Positions 57,831 through 64,000 of a stretch of DNA of 64,000 bases are shown piece after piece. A program made the position numbers and the translations under genes. Position 1 is the first letter of the stretch. Every line of letters starts with the position of its first letter. The stretch comes from an uncultured Clostridia bacterium. GTDB taxonomy: Bacteria; Bacillota; Clostridia; Oscillospirales; Acutalibacteraceae. The notes below the pieces were generated by a model. That model had not been told where the DNA came from and ran no database searches. It was given only the letters and a program-made list of their open reading frames with translations. The stretch covers positions 1 to 64,000 of the forward strand of contig CALWDJ010000003.1 of the NCBI GenBank assembly GCA_944376655.1. The letters run 5' to 3'.

Positions 57831-58034
57831 TTATTTTTTCATATTCCTGCGGTCAAAGCCGGGATTGAAAGCATAAAAATTCTTGCAGTCAAGACGGTCT
57901 GTCGTAAGCCGCAGTGCTTCGCCGAAGCGCTGATAGTGGACTATTTCCCTCGCCCTTAAAAATTTCAGCGGCTCAATAATATCAGGATCATCAATAAGCC
58001 TCAGAAGATTATCGTAAGTCACTCTTGCCTTCTG
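57831..58034 (-). pseudogene. cotJC: cotJC segment 3 (C-terminal 67 codons), separated by element E1
   Basis: C-terminal part of a manganese-catalase-family spore coat protein. It starts at QKARVTYDNLLRL and includes the metal-site helix REIVHYQRFGEAL, ending FNPGFDRRNMKK and a normal stop. It has no start codon or ribosome binding site of its own; the frame continues into E1 (58040-58103) with unrelated sequence. The preceding 76 codons lie 4.76 kb away at 62798-63025, in frame after excision. It may be a gene rebuilt by recombination rather than a dead one. Confidence 0.9.
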
Positions 58035-58061
58035 CTCTGGTACGATTATAAATGCACAACC
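58035..58061 (-). other. E1 attachment site, left end (attL half)
   Basis: Minus strand: element arm GGTTGTGCATTTATAATCG then TACC, followed by core AGAG (58035-58038) and then cotJC segment 3. The arm is a 23-bp inverted match (17 of 23) to the arm at the other end of E1. Confidence 0.85.
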
Positions 58062-58162
58062 GATCCCGAAACCCCTTGATTTTACTGGCTTTTTCGTTGG
58101 CACTTGCCTTTTCTGCCTACATTGTTAAAAGAACAACATCGGTTAAAATTTGTGCAAAATGA

Positions 58163-59716
58163 TTAGAAATTCCAGTGAATTTCAACGGGCGCGTGCTTCA
58201 TACCCTTGAGGCGTTTCCCGATGATAATGTAGTCAATCATCTCCACAACCATCTCTCTGGTAAGGTGCTTGAGGTTGGCGTATTGTTCTATCAACTCTCT
58301 GCGATTGTCACCGACCGCAATCTTTTCGTCCAGCTCGGCAATCTGCTTTTCGTTCTGGGTAATCAGCTTTTCCAAACGGTCACGATTACTCATAAAATCC
58401 TTTGTCATTTCAGTATAATCGCTCTCATTCAGTAACCCCTTTACTTTATCCAAATAAAGGTCTCTGATGCCCTTTGAGTATTCCTCGATCTTTTTCTGAT
58501 AGGCAGTGTTATCGTCCAGCAACCCGGCTTTTTGCTCCTGTAGATTCGTGCAAAATACGATGCTGCGTTCTGCTTCATCCAAGTCCAAATATTCTTTCGA
58601 TAATCGGTTTAACTCTTCAATTACAAGCTGCTCCAAAGTATCTACCGAGATAAAGGAACCGATGCAGGAATCCTTTGCCACATGGCGGTTGGAGCATTGC
58701 AGATAGTGCTTGCCACGGTTTTTTGAGGAGCGCATCACATAACCGCAGCCCATACAGCGAGCCTTTCTTGCGAACAGTCCGACCGTTCCCACATCAAAGG
58801 GCTTTGCCCTTTCTCCAACCAGCTTCTGCACCCTGTCCCACAGCTCACGGTCGATAATCGGCTCGTGCGTGCCTTCCACCACATACCATTCTTCTTTTGG
58901 GCGCGGCTTGCACTGCTTGGTCTTGTAGGAAATACTGCCGTACTTGCCCTGCACCATGTTGCCGATATAAATTTCGTTCGTCAGCATATCGGAAATCGCA
59001 AAGTATTTCCAAAGGGTGCTGTTCTTGCCTTTGGGCTGCTTATATCGCAGACCGTGCAGGCGTTTGTATTCGGTCGGATTGGGAATGCCTCGGTCATTGA
59101 GCATACGGGCGATTGCGGTTTTTCCGTAGCCCCCGGCAAATAGGGTAAAAACTTCTCTTACAACTGCGGCGGCTTCTTCATCGATAATTAAATGTCCCTT
59201 GTGCTCCGGGTCTTTCTTGTACCCGTAAAGTGCAAAAGCGCCGATATGAAAGCCGTTCAGCCGTCTGTTTGTCAAGACGCTTCGGATGTTGTCTGACATA
59301 TCCTCTAAGTACCATTCGTTGACAAGCCCGTTGATCTGGCGAGATTTTTTGTTGCCCTTATTGGCGGTATCCGCGTTGTCAACGATGCTGACAAAGCGAA
59401 TCCCCCAAACAGGAAACAGACCGTGGATATACTTTTCCACAAGCTCCAGTTCACGGGTAAATCGCGACTGTGTCTTGCAGAGAATAATGTCAAAGCGTTT
59501 CGCCTCGGCGTCGGCAAGCAAACGGTTAAACTCGGGGCGGCGTCTGTCCGCGCCGGTATAGTCGTCATCGCTGTAAATATTGTAAAGCTCCCACCCCTGT
59601 TCCATGGCATATTGCAGCAGCATTGTTTTCTGATTTTGTATGCTGTTGCTATCATCGGTTTCAAATTGCTTGTTCCGATCTTCTTCGGATAAGCGGCAAT
59701 ATATAGCTACTTTCAA
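58163..59716 (-). CDS. Large serine recombinase of element E1
   Basis: 517-aa site-specific recombinase. The N-terminal resolvase domain has the catalytic serine in YCRLSEEDRN (Ser10) and DIILCKTQSRFTRE. A recombinase domain (about 155-270) follows, then a zinc ribbon CMGCGYVMRSSKNRGKHYLQC and a C-terminal coiled coil. TTG at 59716 is the start, with AGGAG eight bases upstream. It is intact and lies about 100 bp from the left attachment site, as recombinases of excised sporulation elements do. Predicted to cut at the AGAG core. Confidence 0.95.
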   Translation of the reverse strand: MKVAIYCRLSEEDRNKQFETDDSNSIQNQKTMLLQYAMEQGWELYNIYSDDDYTGADRRRPEFNRLLADAEAKRFDIILCKTQSRFTRELELVEKYIHGLFPVWGIRFVSIVDNADTANKGNKKSRQINGLVNEWYLEDMSDNIRSVLTNRRLNGFHIGAFALYGYKKDPEHKGHLIIDEEAAAVVREVFTLFAGGYGKTAIARMLNDRGIPNPTEYKRLHGLRYKQPKGKNSTLWKYFAISDMLTNEIYIGNMVQGKYGSISYKTKQCKPRPKEEWYVVEGTHEPIIDRELWDRVQKLVGERAKPFDVGTVGLFARKARCMGCGYVMRSSKNRGKHYLQCSNRHVAKDSCIGSFISVDTLEQLVIEELNRLSKEYLDLDEAERSIVFCTNLQEQKAGLLDDNTAYQKKIEEYSKGIRDLYLDKVKGLLNESDYTEMTKDFMSNRDRLEKLITQNEKQIAELDEKIAVGDNRRELIEQYANLKHLTREMVVEMIDYIIIGKRLKGMKHAPVEIHWNF

Positions 59717-59746
59717 TTTTCCATCTCCTTAGAGACAGAACAAGCT

Positions 59747-59787
59747 GTTTTCGTATATAGTATACCATACGAAAACCTATTTGTCAT
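59747..59787 (-). promoter_or_regulatory. Promoter with overlapping palindrome before the E1 recombinase
   Basis: Minus strand ATGACA (59782-59787), 17 bp, TATACT (59759-59764). A perfect inverted repeat GTTTTCGTAT / ATACGAAAAC (59747-59756 with 59767-59776, 10-bp spacer) covers the -10 box. No T tract follows, so it is an operator candidate rather than a terminator. A bound regulator would block the recombinase promoter. Confidence 0.7.
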
Positions 59788-59923
59788 CGTTTTTCACGCA
59801 AAAGCTCACGCTTTTGCTCCTTTCCAGCTTGTTGATAAGTTCTATCCAGATCTTTGTGAATACCTCTTTTGAGGTCGTGCTTTCGCCGCTTTTGAAAACA
59901 CTTTTCACAAGGCCCGTTTCCAT
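59777..59923 (-). CDS. 48-aa protein upstream of the E1 recombinase
   Basis: Short gene with an excellent ribosome binding site: AAGGAGG (59930-59936), six bases before ATG 59923. The product starts METGLVKSVFKSGESTTSKE, has an amphipathic middle (FTKIWIELINKLERS) and a basic tail. It ends 61 bases before the recombinase start and probably shares its transcript. No family recognised with confidence. Small partners next to serine recombinases can be directionality factors; that is only a guess here. A longer reading in another frame (59784-60026) has no ribosome binding site and was not chosen. Confidence 0.65.
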   Translation of the reverse strand: METGLVKSVFKSGESTTSKEVFTKIWIELINKLERSKSVSFCVKNDDK

Positions 59924-60096
59924 AAAAAGCCTCCTTCTCAGTTAAGGCGGCACAAGTCATTCCAACTTTATGATATATGAGCAGATTTTCGAGGGATTTT
60001 TTTGTTATGAGGTCACAGGAATACAAATGTATTTCAAAACCGAATACGGAAAAAGCACCGAAAATATGCCATATAGGGCTGGGCGGAATGGCTTGC

Positions 60097-60128
60097 GCCG
60101 CCTTTTAGTACACTATATGAAAGGCGGC
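60097..60128. repeat. Inverted repeat in E1 non-coding stretch
   Basis: Perfect 9-bp arms GCCGCCTTT / AAAGGCGGC around a 14-nt loop, without a T tract on either strand. It lies in the 300-bp gap between the 48-aa gene and the MATE fragment, where no other gene is visible. Function unknown. Confidence 0.5.
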
Positions 60129-60187
60129 AAGTCCGCTATTCTTTACAGCGCGCAAGCAATATGAAAAGCGGCATTCATTTTGGCAAG

Positions 60188-60221
60188 TAAAAAAGCCCTT
60201 TGAACAAGTCAAAGAGCTTTT
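60188..60221 (-). terminator. Terminator after the MATE fragment
   Basis: Minus-strand stem AAAAGCTCTTTGA / TCAAAGGGCTTTT (one wobble), 5-nt loop, then TTTTTTAC, 20 bases beyond the MATE stop. Confidence 0.8.
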
Positions 60222-60241
60222 ATCAAATCATTTTTGCTATT

Positions 60242-61053
60242 TTAATTTTTTACGCAATCCTTTTTTATAAAAAATCGTTGTTGAATGATTGAAATAATAA
60301 GGTGGACAACCATTCCGAAGCCGAACATCAGTATAATGGTATTTATATTAAATTTGATTAACCCGGTCAGATACAGTATATAAAATATACCGTAATAGCC
60401 AAGATTGATTATGAGAGAATTGACTGCATTATAGACCGTTTTTCCAAACCCGATAAAAATATTATCGATAATGGCACAGCCTGCATAGGCAATATAGAAC
60501 GGTGCAAGCTTGAGAGTAATTATAAATATCTCATTTGCATTGGATAGATTTTCGGCATAGCGGAAAAAAGGTAGCCATGCAGGTGTTGTGATCGCCAACA
60601 AGATAACAACCGCGCCGCCGATCAGGTAGTAATTTGTCTGTTTTAAGTTCTGATAGCCATCCTTGCAGTCGCTTCGGATAACCTCGGAAAGCGCCGTGAT
60701 AGGTATCAGCAGCCAGCCCCAAATAAAGTTATTGGCAACCCAGTAGTTGCCCTGTTCGGCAACCATATTTACCATTTTGCAAACCATTACGGCATAAATC
60801 AGATTATCCGCAAACTGTTGCAGTCCCGAAAAGGCACCGACTTTGCACCATTCCTTGAAAATACCGATATCCGACCTTCTGAATCGGGAAAAGCGAATGT
60901 ATTTTTGCTTATATAGAATGAAAATACTTACAACTGCAAGCAGTGTGTTTGTGATAATATTTGAAATTGCAACGCCGTATACTTGAAAGCTCGGTATCAA
61001 CAAAAAATCTGCAATCAAAGACAGAATGGTGCGTACACCTAAGAATACTGTGG
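60242..61053 (-). pseudogene. MATE-family transporter, C-terminal fragment
   Basis: About 270 residues from FLGVRTILSLIADFLLIPSF to the end, with about eight hydrophobic segments, matching the second two-thirds of a MATE exporter. The N-terminal third is missing: upstream of about 61050 the sequence is the 3' end of a truncated recombinase gene in another frame. The frame is open to 61177, but those residues are out-of-frame recombinase sequence. Non-functional as it stands. Confidence 0.8.
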
Positions 61054-61743
61054 AAGCTCGCCGTAATTCTTTCTGCGGTGTTTGGTGATGGGGTCTTCGC
61101 AGTATTCCTTCTGGAAAAGCATGTTCCCTGTGTAGGTGATGTTTGTTAGGATGACCTTCACATTGGAGTCCACCCACGGCTTTCCTTGCCGGGTATAAAT
61201 GCCTCGTTGCATCAGGGCTCTGCCGATTTCTATGCGTGATGCGCCTTTCATATACTCAGCATACATCCAGCGGACGATCTCGGCTTCCTCCGGAATGATG
61301 ACCAGCTTGTCATCCTGCCACTCATATCCGAATATCGAGAACTTGCCGTTGGGAATGCCTTGCTTGAATCGCTTTATCATGCCCCATTTGACGTTTTCCG
61401 AAATGCTGCGGCTCTCTTCCTGCGCAAAAGAAGCGAGGATGGAAAGCATCAGCTCTCCGTCACCACTCAAGGAATTGATATTTTCCTTTTCGAAGCGAAC
61501 CTCAATTCCGAGATCCTTTAGGTGCCGGACTGTGTTCAAAAGATCCACAGTGTTCCTCGCAAATCGCTGAATCGACTTGGTGAGGATAATGTCGATGTTT
61601 CCGGCTTCACACTCTGCCAGCATGCGATTAAACTCCTCACGTTTTTTGGTGTCGGTGCCAGAGATCCCGTAATCCGCAAAAACTCCAGCATAACTTAGTT
61701 GGGAGAACAGGGCGTTTATTTCAGCATTATTTAGGAGTAGCAC
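61039..61743 (-). pseudogene. Serine recombinase remnant
   Basis: 234 aa covering the mid and recombinase domains of a second, different serine recombinase: YGISGTDTKKREEFNRML, DIILTKSIQRFARNTVDLL, GELMLSILASFAQEESRS, ending KHRRKNYGELPQYS. The N-terminal segment with the catalytic serine (YxRVS) is missing, and the chain stops before the zinc ribbon. It is closer to the E2 recombinase type than to the intact E1 enzyme. Both ends join unrelated sequence, so it is a relic of an earlier insertion. Confidence 0.85.
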
Positions 61744-61790
61744 ATTACATAAAAACTCCGTCTGATCCGGTCTACGAGAAATCGCAGGCT

Positions 61791-62558
61791 TTGAAATCTA
61801 TAGAATTTGAATTAACTGATTCAAGTATTGATATGGATATCAATTTTGGTGATTATAGAAAGCACCCCGAATTTGTCGATGTTCTTCAAAAGTTAGGAAT
61901 TAGCTATGACGAGTATAAAGCTCAAATTGCTCGTAAACACCGGTTTTCAACGGTCGCATTTTTGCTAAATAGATATACGCAATCCAAAGCCAAACTTCTT
62001 GATATATTGTATAGACAAATGAGAGATCCAAATCAAAGTAAGCTGGAATTGGTTCGTGTGTTGTATGAAATATTGGAGGACAAGCCCCGAGATTTCAAAC
62101 TTAATACTTTTATTATTAATCGCCTTACTTATAAATATCGTCAATCTGTAAGAGAAGTTGTTGATGCTACTGCTGAATATTACAAAAATACTGGTATATC
62201 GAAAATAATCAATACAACAATACGTTACAAATCAAGTTATATTGAGTTCGATTTTTATAACAAAGTAGATTTAATTCGCTACTTCATGCGTTGTGAAAAT
62301 GTCAATGATTCTCTAATAAATACACTGCATGAACGATTGCTTAAAAATATCGAAATACTATACTATTTGACCACTCCAAGCAAGAAAATGCTCAAGGACA
62401 TGGGAATCTACGAGGGTGATATAGATCAAATTATCGCCATTATCGGGGACGATTTCACAAGCATTGCAGAACTCCAGCAATTGTTAACAGAGCACCTTGA
62501 TAAGCTTGGAAAAATAAGTATTGTATCAAGATATATAATTAATCGCTTACTCAATTAA
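61791..62558 (+). CDS. AT-rich hypothetical protein, probably 5'-truncated
   Basis: 255 aa from TTG 61791, no recognised family. Content is alpha-helical and charged (FVDVLQKLGISYDEYKAQIA, YRQSVREVVDATAEYYKN), with a C-terminal LEHLDKLGKIS-like stretch. Base composition is clearly more AT-rich than neighbouring genes. No good ribosome binding site precedes it, and the frame stays open and protein-like upstream (HYIKTPSDPVYEKSQAL) into the recombinase remnant, so the real start is likely lost. The only plus-strand gene in E1. Confidence 0.55.
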   Translation: MKSIEFELTDSSIDMDINFGDYRKHPEFVDVLQKLGISYDEYKAQIARKHRFSTVAFLLNRYTQSKAKLLDILYRQMRDPNQSKLELVRVLYEILEDKPRDFKLNTFIINRLTYKYRQSVREVVDATAEYYKNTGISKIINTTIRYKSSYIEFDFYNKVDLIRYFMRCENVNDSLINTLHERLLKNIEILYYLTTPSKKMLKDMGIYEGDIDQIIAIIGDDFTSIAELQQLLTEHLDKLGKISIVSRYIINRLLN

Positions 62559-62579
62559 CATATAGTAGAACGGTTATTC

Positions 62580-62625
62580 AAAAGACAATGGCAGCTGGAA
62601 TTTTTCCAACAGCCATTGTCTTTTT
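62580..62625 (+). terminator. Terminator of the AT-rich gene
   Basis: Long stem AAAAGACAATGGC / GCCATTGTCTTTTT with an inner TGGAA/TTCCA extension, followed by TTTTT, 21 bases after the stop. Confidence 0.88.
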
Positions 62626-62774
62626 ACTTGAATTTTTCTTTCAGAAAACAGCTTGTCCTATCGTATTTTTGTGATTTGTTGTTCTTATGAGGTCGCAGGC
62701 GGCGATTTGGAGCAAGAACCCTGAAAGTCCGGAAAACCGCATGAAATAAGGCTTTCTGGGGTATTGAAAACACA
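62626..62774. other. Non-coding right flank of E1
   Basis: About 150 bp between the terminator and the right attachment arm. No gene, repeat or promoter could be supported on either strand. Confidence 0.4.
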
Positions 62775-62802
62775 GGTTGTTCTTTCGTCATCGTGCCCTC
62801 TG
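62775..62802 (-). other. E1 attachment site, right end (attR half)
   Basis: Minus strand: cotJC ...GCGGC, core AGAG (62798-62801), then element arm GGCACGATGACGAAAG and AACAACC down to 62775. Its complement GGTTGT-x9-ATCGTGCC mirrors the left arm GGTTGT-x9-ATCGTACC. Confidence 0.85.
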
Positions 62803-63025
62803 CCGCAAGGTCTTCATGAAGGTCGGTTATCGCGTCGCCTTTCGCCTGGATATAGGTAGCGGTCCACGGAAGACCCGACGCGGCCACCGGATATACGGCG
62901 TTGGTATGGTCCACAAAGTAGGTTTCAAAGCCGCTTTTCTTTATTTGCTCCGGAGTAAGATTTTTTGTAAGCTGGTGAACCATGGCGCAGATCATTTCCA
63001 GGTGTCCGAGCTCCTCTGTACCTAT
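62798..63025 (-). pseudogene. cotJC: cotJC segment 2 (76 codons) between elements E1 and E2
   Basis: Reads IGTEELGHLEMICAMVHQLT to ITDLHEDLAAE, the middle of CotJC, with the metal-binding Glu and His in EELGHLEM. It has no start codon: upstream the sequence turns into E2 at or just before the Ile codon (63023-63025), where family members normally have Asp. Downstream the frame runs into E1. The coding length matches the family when joined to 57831-58034. About 45-60 N-terminal codons must lie right of this window. Confidence 0.9.
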
Positions 63026-63053
63026 TGAAGAACAAAATTGTTTATGATATAAT
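63025..63053 (+). promoter_or_regulatory. Promoter at the edge of E2
   Basis: TTGAAG (63025-63030), 17 bp, TATAAT (63048-63053), followed by AGAGGTG and the 114-aa gene. The -35 box begins at the last base of cotJC segment 2. Confidence 0.8.
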
Positions 63054-63086
63054 AAGTACAACAAAATAAAAAAAGAGGTGTAAAAA

Positions 63087-63431
63087 ATGCCCTTAGATGA
63101 TGAACTCAAAAACCACATTTTTAATTTTGTGAAACATCATACAACCTTAAGACAAGCACGAAATGCCCAAAAACTTCTGGAGAAACCTGATTTGCTTCTT
63201 ATCTACATCTTATCCGCATACAATATGCATGAGATAACCCAATTTGGGGGTATGCGGATGATAACAAACCCCGAAGCATTTTTACCCACAGAGAAAGAGA
63301 AGAATGCTTTTATTCAAGAATTGAAAAAGTATGTTGCCACTCTTTATACATACAACGGAAAGGAAGTAAATTTTAATGGATACAACAGTAATTGCTCCGA
63401 TTCACAAACCGCTGAAGACCGAAACGGATGA
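63087..63431 (+). CDS. 114-aa hypothetical protein of E2
   Basis: ATG 63087 has AGAGGTG at 63073-63079. The product is helical in its first 40 residues (IFNFVKHHTTLRQARNAQKL) and shows no motif that I recognise. Its last 18 codons overlap the start of the serine recombinase by 56 bases, so the two are translated from one message. Possible recombinase partner; function unknown. Confidence 0.7.
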   Translation: MPLDDELKNHIFNFVKHHTTLRQARNAQKLLEKPDLLLIYILSAYNMHEITQFGGMRMITNPEAFLPTEKEKNAFIQELKKYVATLYTYNGKEVNFNGYNSNCSDSQTAEDRNG

Positions 63432-64000
63432 ACAGTTAAAGGTTTGTGCTTACTGTCGTGTATCTACTGATGAAGCGGACCAGCGGAACTCTTTAAAATC
63501 TCAAAAAAAGTTTTTTGCTGATATTTTCAAAAAACACCCGAACTGGACGAATGTTGGCATATTTGCAGATGAAGGAATCAGCGGAACATCTTTAGAAAAG
63601 CGGGACCGTTTCAATGCTATGATAGCACTTGCAAAGCGAAAAGGTGTTGATGTTATTTTAACGAAAGAAGTATCCCGATTTTCACGAAATGCCACCGATT
63701 TATTAAGCATAGTAAAAGACCTGCAAGACCGCAAGGTCTTTATATGGTTTTTATCGGATGACATCAATACCGAAAACCCGAACAGTATCCAACAATTAAC
63801 CGAAACCGCCACATCCGCACAGGGCGAAAGCTTAAGAACATCCCGCCGAGTTGTTTGGGGGCAACAAAGACAGATGGAAAAAGGTATTGTGTTCGGGCGG
63901 AAAGAAATGTATGGGTATCGCATAGAAAGAGACAGCGAGGGCATACAACACTTTATTGTCGTTGAGGAAGAAGCGGAAATCATCAAAAAAATATTTGAAT
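63376..64000 (+). CDS. Serine recombinase of element E2, 3'-truncated by the window edge
   Basis: Open from ATG 63376 to the end of the window (208 residues). The resolvase domain has catalytic serine in CAYCRVSTDEADQRNS (near residue 34), IFADEGISGTSLEKRDRF and VILTKEVSRFSRNATDLL. The start of the recombinase domain follows (QMEKGIVFGRKEMYGYRI). It belongs to a different subgroup from the E1 enzyme and is closer to the remnant at 61039-61743. Presumed integrase/excisionase of E2. Confidence 0.93.
   Translation, partial: MDTTVIAPIHKPLKTETDEQLKVCAYCRVSTDEADQRNSLKSQKKFFADIFKKHPNWTNVGIFADEGISGTSLEKRDRFNAMIALAKRKGVDVILTKEVSRFSRNATDLLSIVKDLQDRKVFIWFLSDDINTENPNSIQQLTETATSAQGESLRTSRRVVWGQQRQMEKGIVFGRKEMYGYRIERDSEGIQHFIVVEEEAEIIKKIFE

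Follow-up and report, generated by a model that had tools for sequence, protein, structure and literature searches.

Recombinase elements divide the spore coat gene cotJC at four recurring sites in Clostridia and may be excised in the mother cell

The spore coat gene cotJC of an uncultured bacterium of the Acutalibacteraceae does not lie in one piece, which raises the question of whether the gene is broken or is instead reassembled in the cells that use it. The locus is found in a window of 64,000 nucleotides (positions 1 to 64,000 of contig CALWDJ010000003.1, assembly GCA_944376655.1). Here, G000 denotes the genome of the window, C3 its 88.7-kb contig, other G labels genomes and L labels loci fetched for comparison. 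An earlier sequence-only reading proposed that a single recombinase element splits cotJC and would restore its frame on excision, by the logic of skin and the spsM element. We found that the split is real and larger than first stated, with three pieces and two elements, and that it is one case among many rather than a singular one. The pieces and elements are listed in the order in which the gene is read.

C3:68606-68800 (outside the window), minus strand: cotJC segment 1, PF05067 positions 1-66, behind cotJB and cotJA
63023..64000 in the window and on to C3:68617, plus strand: element B, 5,595 bp at codon 65 (site S2)
63012..63025, minus strand: 14-bp core ATAGGTACAGAGGA of element B, repeated near C3:68617 and shared by both ends in comparison with G023
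62798..63025, minus strand: cotJC segment 2, about codons 61-136, PF05067 positions 56-151
58040..62802, minus strand: element A, 4,763 bp at codon 136 (site S3), one core copy (62798-62802) included, from comparison with the empty site of G023
58035..58039, minus strand: core CAGAG at the attachment site attR of element A, from the same comparison
57831..58034, minus strand: cotJC segment 3, codons 137-203 and stop, PF05067 positions 149-196, identical to G023 CotJC except at residues 201-202

A search of the genome with the PF05067 profile (manganese catalase family) returned three ordered minus-strand matches on C3, at 68606-68800, 62795-63043 and 57897-58040, and no further cotJC match; cotJB and cotJA (PF12652 and PF11007) lie upstream of segment 1. 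The junctions named by the sequence-only reading proved exact, with segment 2 ending in GCG GCA GAG at 62798, segment 3 starting with CAG AAG GCA at 58034, both on the minus strand, and CAGAG copies at 62802-62798 and 58039-58035 that give the same 4,763 bp for the gap. That reading had also called for comparison with relatives whose cotJC is intact. Such a relative is G023, of the same genus, in which an uninterrupted cotJC (locus L013) provides the empty site for both elements. When its locus was aligned to G000 with blastn, three blocks of 87-89% identity were obtained whose breaks are the element borders, those of element A among them, and the CAGAG said to be common to both junctions is indeed seen at both borders of element A.

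Joined over both cores, the three pieces give 203 codons without a stop, as expected of the proposed seamless join, and the resulting protein differs from that of G023 only at residues 201 and 202. The 66 nucleotide differences between the two genes are distributed 1, 2 and 63 over codon positions 1, 2 and 3. In the unexcised state, segment 1 reads into element B and reaches a stop after 114 codons, and the interrupted gene cannot encode the full enzyme. The idea of a single cut did not hold: because element B, with a different recombinase, splits the gene at codon 65, where segment 2 ends (63025), excision of element A is not enough by itself to restore cotJC. The parallel with skin and spsM stands as to the seamless join, the intact recombinase, a recombinase family tied to its site and a sigma-E-type promoter before a small open reading frame (ORF), and falls short in that removing element A leaves the gene split. 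Judged by its anatomy, namely a sporulation gene whose coding region is split, uninterrupted serine recombinases, and short direct repeats over which joining restores the frame exactly, the locus would belong among skin-like systems. Given that the SpoIVA and Spo0A domains of G000 (spoIVA, spo0A) lie in open frames of 498 and 267 codons, its host is probably a spore former. We consider it likely, from these sequence comparisons, that both elements leave the chromosome of the mother cell during sporulation, and that a whole cotJC of 203 codons would thereby be restored.

Across genomes, cotJC was cut at four sites (slashes mark the cut): S1 at about codon 31 (QYGG/PDGE), S2 at about codon 65 (GTEE/LGH), S3 at codon 136 (LAAE/QKAR) and S4 at about codon 175 (QRFGEA/LR). 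The large serine recombinase (LSR) at the element edge depends on the site, being LSR_C at S1, LSR_B at S2, LSR_A at S3, and LSR_D or a further type, E, at S4. A survey of 70 genomes of the genus gave a cotJC match in 60, comprising 27 full-length genes, 24 sets of pieces bounded by S1-S4, 3 unclear cases (two at contig ends and one weak) and 6 genomes with only a homologue of about 37% identity. At the level of the order, 196 of 245 genomes had a match; among the matches listed (150 rows), which leave out 48 matched genomes, 98 genomes had a full copy and 50 had only pieces bounded by S1-S4, some of the S4-type ends possibly being divergent C-termini instead of cuts.

Several genes are cut more than once. 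S2 and S3 are both cut in Blautia An249 and in G070, and two of 21 genomes picked for at least three cotJC matches go further: G123 has four pieces on one contig, with S2, S3 and S4 cut, and in G317 the gene is in five pieces, all in order on a single 480-kb contig, with all four sites filled. The edge recombinases of G317 are of C-, B-, A- and E-type at the respective sites (40, 35, 61 and 42% identical); one base of its S2 junction, read by eye, is unexplained, and the five-piece structure is known here from the order of the pieces. In Caproiciproducens YR-4 the pieces break at S2 and S3, and we did not count the S2 break as an element, since segment 1 is on another contig, far from its ends, and none of these recombinases was present in the 14 kb fetched.

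CotJC aligns with solved manganese catalases across the range of S1-S4, and the four sites presumably lie near the metal ligands. In 20 intact genes, S1 and S4 fall in the most conserved tenth of 24-nt windows and S2 and S3 only in the upper 35-37%, for which reason we rejected site conservation as the whole explanation for the choice of cotJC.

The LSR_A set came from a scan of named genomes that gave 394 relatives, of which the best 80 (76-90% identical) were kept. Downstream of the LSR_A end, a cotJC piece is found at 75 of these 80 loci, within 400 nt at 73; 60 of the latter are beside segment 3 and 13 are beside the upstream part in the other orientation. Since the same junction (codon 136/137) recurs so regularly beside LSR_A relatives, chance is excluded. 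Random insertion was rejected because fixed codons recur, and the count of 73 likewise led us to reject mixed targets for LSR_A. Carriers include Roseburia faecis M72, Clostridium fessum, Anaerotignum lactatifermentans DSM 14214, Anaerotruncus colihominis, Flintibacter muris and Blautia sp. An249. Of the seven exceptions, two lie 2.7 and 3.7 kb from a cotJC piece, and five (L081, L090, L124 at a contig end, L137 and L153) show no such piece; L081 stands in tandem with another element, and a cut cotJC is 10 kb off.

The other families were traced through the 245 genomes of the order. LSR_B occurs in 9 of them at E 1e-100, G000 included, and at 7 of the 9 loci (at least 40% identity, its own locus counted) it is beside an S2-cut cotJC, with none in the flanks of L189 and L190. 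LSR_C occurs in 23 at E 1e-80, and 21 of the 23 are at S1 (35-51% identical). LSR_D occurs in 36; of the 30 loci supplied, 12 have an S4-cut cotJC, two more (L224 and L225) were recognized by eye, and 16 have none. On this sequence evidence, LSR_A, LSR_B and LSR_C look dedicated to cotJC sites, and LSR_D partly so.

LSR_A elements share their ends, which read ...GCAGAT/GGTGCAA...AACAAC on the left and GTTGT...TTGCACCAGAG/CAG... on the right, and G000 fits this form; the attachment site (att) arms are near-inverted repeats around a CAGA core. In 20 of 22 left ends listed, codon 136 at the cut reads Asp in place of Glu, and a stop often follows shortly; Glu is kept in G000. LSR_A elements lie in cotJC in either orientation (L085-L089, L135, L139 and others versus L078-L084), and the centre of the attachment site attP, read by eye, is AGAT in one orientation class and ATCT in the other, within near-symmetric arms.

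If the elements leave during sporulation, their own genes may hold the timing. The relevant features are as follows.

58163..59716, minus strand: LSR_A, 517 aa, TTG start, uninterrupted, with YCRLS near the N-terminus
59759..59786, minus strand: putative sigma-A-type promoter of LSR_A, TGACAA-16-TATACT, with a palindrome around the -10, read by eye
59777..59923, minus strand: 48-codon ORF, candidate recombination directionality factor, conserved upstream of LSR_A
60112..60139, minus strand: sigma-E-type promoter motif ATA-N17-CATATAGT before the 48-codon ORF, a motif also found in relatives
63376..64000 in the window, ending at C3:65130, plus strand: LSR_B, 584 aa, a large serine recombinase with Resolvase and Recombinase domains

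LSR_A, the intact serine recombinase of the sequence-only reading, matches Resolvase, Recombinase, Zn_ribbon_recom and DUF4368 in Pfam and integrase phrog_95 in PHROG. It thus has the Resolvase, Recombinase and zinc ribbon by which we recognized large serine recombinases; the zinc ribbon of LSR_B scores below the Pfam cut-off.

Of 83 loci with 400 nt or more of upstream sequence, 79 have a small ORF of about 50 codons before LSR_A. The four exceptions are L093 and three viral contigs, of which two carry distant recombinases (45-46%). The 98 database relatives of the small ORF carry neither a Pfam domain nor a functional name, and we infer that these ORFs may encode directionality factors. We searched the 59 non-redundant regions upstream of the 79 small ORFs for the pattern ATA-N16-18-CATAnnnT, in which CATAnnnT is the -10 form of sigma-E promoters. 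The pattern was present in 49 of the 59, compared with a mean of 1.27 (maximum 6) in 200 dinucleotide shuffles and of 1.57 (maximum 5) in 100 sets of random windows from the same loci. The spacer is 17 in 47 of the 49, and its sequence takes nine or more dissimilar forms. In the spoIVA control, the pattern was present upstream of the gene in 16 of the 20 genus genomes fetched (62 have a match), G000 included, where 0.53 were expected. A loose sigma-A-type pattern lies before LSR_A at 42 of 78 loci. For LSR_D, at S4, the three genus loci displayed have the same order of motif, 55-codon ORF with ribosome site, and recombinase. In element B, no candidate factor was found to have a sigma-E-type promoter.

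These features suggest a mechanism. LSR_A would be made constitutively from its sigma-A-type promoter, and the small ORF just upstream would supply the directionality factor from the sigma-E-type promoter. Excision would then be limited to the mother cell, after sigma-E activation and before the coat gene is needed; the element would persist in the forespore chromosome and so would lose nothing by excision. As for the timing of cotJC itself, B. subtilis cotJC is listed under sigma-E (PMC3416734), and the homologous operons of C. difficile are described as dropping in a sigK mutant (PMC3789822). We lean, with less assurance than for G000 itself, towards a broader reading in which cotJC is a gene with four sockets for rearrangement: at least four recombinase families would have specialized on four sites near metal-ligand motifs, mother cells of many Clostridia would assemble the gene by multi-step DNA elimination (up to four excisions and five pieces, as in G317), the elements would carry their own sigma-E-timed exit switch, and a class of mobile elements would live harmlessly in a gene used only in a cell about to die.

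If the divided gene is still used, its pieces should carry marks of selection. Among 63 downstream halves of S3-cut genes, 3 run to a contig edge; in 57 of the remaining 60 the frame stays open until a stop 60-87 codons downstream. No stop interrupts the upstream parts in any of 21 cases, 5 of them partial. In most LSR_A pairs compared, the synonymous divergence (dS) of the recombinase is far below that of cotJC, and therefore most of the elements compared have spread horizontally. A few pairs look, by their sequences, as though the element had been kept vertically with cotJC under purifying selection. In the clearest case, two syntenic Oscillospiraceae isolates named Lapin (rabbit; L131/L148), 91% identical over 3.3 kb, have dS of 0.35 for the LSR, 0.35 for segment 3 and 0.57 for segments 1-2, with ratios of nonsynonymous divergence (dN) to dS of 0.074, 0.079 and 0.014, respectively. 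For L037/L039, an S1 pair from the window's genus, dS is 0.41 for the LSR and 0.51 for cotJC, with dN of 0.006, and similarity inside the element is patchy. If such insertions predate the species split, cotJC would have been functional while cut, and excision would have been needed in some cells.

Several observations weigh against excision in the mother cell. No read, circle or rejoined junction was seen in G000. Element A of G000 was acquired horizontally (LSR dS of 0.37 against a saturated cotJC dS in the pair with L077), and a Diplocloster and Clostridium fessum (L135/L139) share an LSR at 100% identity where their cotJC genes are 72% identical, a recent horizontal arrival. Because most LSR_A pairs compared are recent arrivals of this kind, intact cotJC halves can partly reflect the youth of the insertions. 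Only 5 LSR_A pairs pass the filter for similar dS that marks vertical descent, three of which rest on 39 codons and have L133 in common. Three downstream halves are abnormal, with early stops in L108 and L118 and a frame that runs past 100 codons in L106. The sigma-E-type pattern was found before cotJA, the intended positive control, at 0 of 25 loci, and in a wider LSR_D set it occurred within 700 nt at 6 of 12 loci at cotJC with upstream DNA and at 2 of 15 elsewhere. In G000 the motif starts 216 nt before the small ORF start and 234 nt before a conserved codon, compared with 79-109 nt before that codon in relatives. Finally, cotJC may be dispensable; a further near-full copy exists in 3 of 19 genomes, and C. 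difficile cotCB and cotD mutants are described as having no marked coat defect (PMC11222575). Of the abnormal halves, the early stop of L108 is at S4 and perhaps reflects a further cut, and segment 3 of L118, which is S3-cut, ends at 50 codons, away from S4, possibly as a decaying copy.

It is possible, although improbable, that cotJC is merely a favoured landing gene for mobile elements such as conjugative elements or islands, with exit at random or at transfer and a host that does without CotJC meanwhile. The horizontal spread of LSR_A elements and the slight coat defect of the C. difficile homologue mutants would agree with this, as would the Lysozyme_like and NlpC_P60 proteins of some LSR_A elements (L139, L146), a pair that we take to be typical of conjugative elements. 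At L196 (G070:C22), moreover, S3 is occupied by a tandem pair of LSR_A-type recombinases (84% and 51% identical), separated by an attP-like junction, which fits accretion. However, a landing gene does not predict the sigma-E-type promoter at the small ORF (49/59), the open halves (57/60 and 21/21) or the low dN/dS of pairs whose element apparently goes back to before their split.

Fainter still is the chance that the cotJC of G000 is a dead gene and element A a decayed remnant unable to leave. Besides the features above, the elements carry the following.

60242..61036, minus strand: MATE-family transporter remnant in element A, 5'-truncated (NF045539 positions 148-410 of 411)
61039..61743, minus strand: remnant of another serine recombinase in element A, 234 aa, with Resolvase 29-143 and Recombinase 1-70 only
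61791..62558, plus strand: 255-codon ORF in element A, with no Pfam, NCBIfam or PHROG match
63087..63431, plus strand: 114-codon ORF before LSR_B, with no Pfam or NCBIfam match

The truncated transporter and recombinase genes would suit decay, as would the finding that only about 1.75 kb of element A (small ORF and LSR_A) matches seven related loci, at 72-90% identity, and the dN/dS of LSR_A against L077, which at 0.17 is the highest among the LSR pairs with a ratio in that comparison. Yet LSR_A, the small ORF, the promoter motifs, the att arms and all three cotJC pieces are uninterrupted, and the differences from G023 are concentrated at third positions, though part of them may predate the insertion. 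An assembly artefact has next to no chance: G000 and the genus members examined are drafts, with several cotJC pieces of relatives at contig ends, but the pieces lie in order on one contig in both G000 and G317, and named isolates with the same split on single contigs (Roseburia faecis M72, Clostridium fessum) refute it for the general case.

Several known systems resemble the elements in cotJC. In skin(Cd), in sigK of Clostridioides difficile, the recombinase CD1231 is expressed from sigma-A and the directionality factor CD1234 from sigma-E with SpoIIID (PMC5025042). The likeness comprises a large serine recombinase inside a mother-cell sporulation gene and, as predicted for cotJC from sequence motifs, sigma-A-type expression of the recombinase, a small factor with a sigma-E promoter and precise rejoining; in contrast, the target here is not sigK, the small ORF of element A lies directly upstream of the recombinase, and the elements occur in many species, with several recombinase families and two to four elements per gene. 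The skin element of B. subtilis sigK, SP-beta in spsM and vfbin in spoVFB also lie in sporulation genes that are rebuilt by excision (PMC10747680, PMC4191935), as is predicted for cotJC. They are described as prophages or prophage-like (PMC10747680), whereas an integrase was the only phage gene recognized among the element A ORFs scanned. The gin element of Bacillus cereus gerE resembles element A in its serine recombinase genes and short end repeats; it is a non-prophage element that needs an extra factor, GirX, as may hold for element A, but is 28.6 kb long and lies in a 225-bp regulator gene (PMC5595907). Finally, yin, in yabG of Clostridium botulinum, shares a clostridial sporulation gene, a recombinase element, a 14-bp repeat and a candidate small factor, but is described as a prophage unique to one strain, with its factor under a putative sigma-K promoter (PMC10747680).

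We found no description of cotJC as the target of a recombinase element in the open-licence PMC literature; subscription journals and preprints lay outside this scope, and an earlier description is possible. The nearest lead is C. difficile prophage phi027, which adjoins a gene described as a CotJC-like manganese catalase (PMC11222575). As far as searched, what is new is cotJC as a target, the number of sites with their tied families, the presence of as many as four elements in one gene, and a small ORF that in dozens of genomes is preceded by the sigma-E motif. Sporulation-timed gene rebuilding is so far described in that literature for a handful of genes, and here a single coat gene involves at least four recombinase families in cultured and uncultured species. 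If the switch works as proposed, it would offer many natural sets of recombinase, site and factor, it would explain how a conserved gene can harbour mobile elements at no lasting cost, and pieces of cotJC now labelled pseudogenes may belong to a gene that works. In cultured hosts, the sigma-E motif opens the timing to direct test.

The remaining contents of the elements and genome are of lesser weight. No relaxase or transfer gene was recognized with Pfam and NCBIfam among the element A ORFs scanned, and a PHROG scan of LSR_A, LSR_B and one ORF of G000 gave an integrase match only. Element B contains, besides LSR_B, a helix-turn-helix regulator and a MobV-like relaxase stretch at 77 bits (curated cut-off 100). 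Rfam gave no match in L004, a 20-kb stretch of G000; in two other LSR_A elements (L088:7575-7672 and L078:7571-7666), pemK RNA (RF02913) is found a short way before the small ORF and the recombinase. At L036 (G004:C37:27433-27648), a second cotJC copy beside an intact one has an internal deletion that fuses codons 1-46 to 171-198. Another contig of G000 carries three more large-serine-recombinase matches within about 3 kb (G000:C33:1358-4156).

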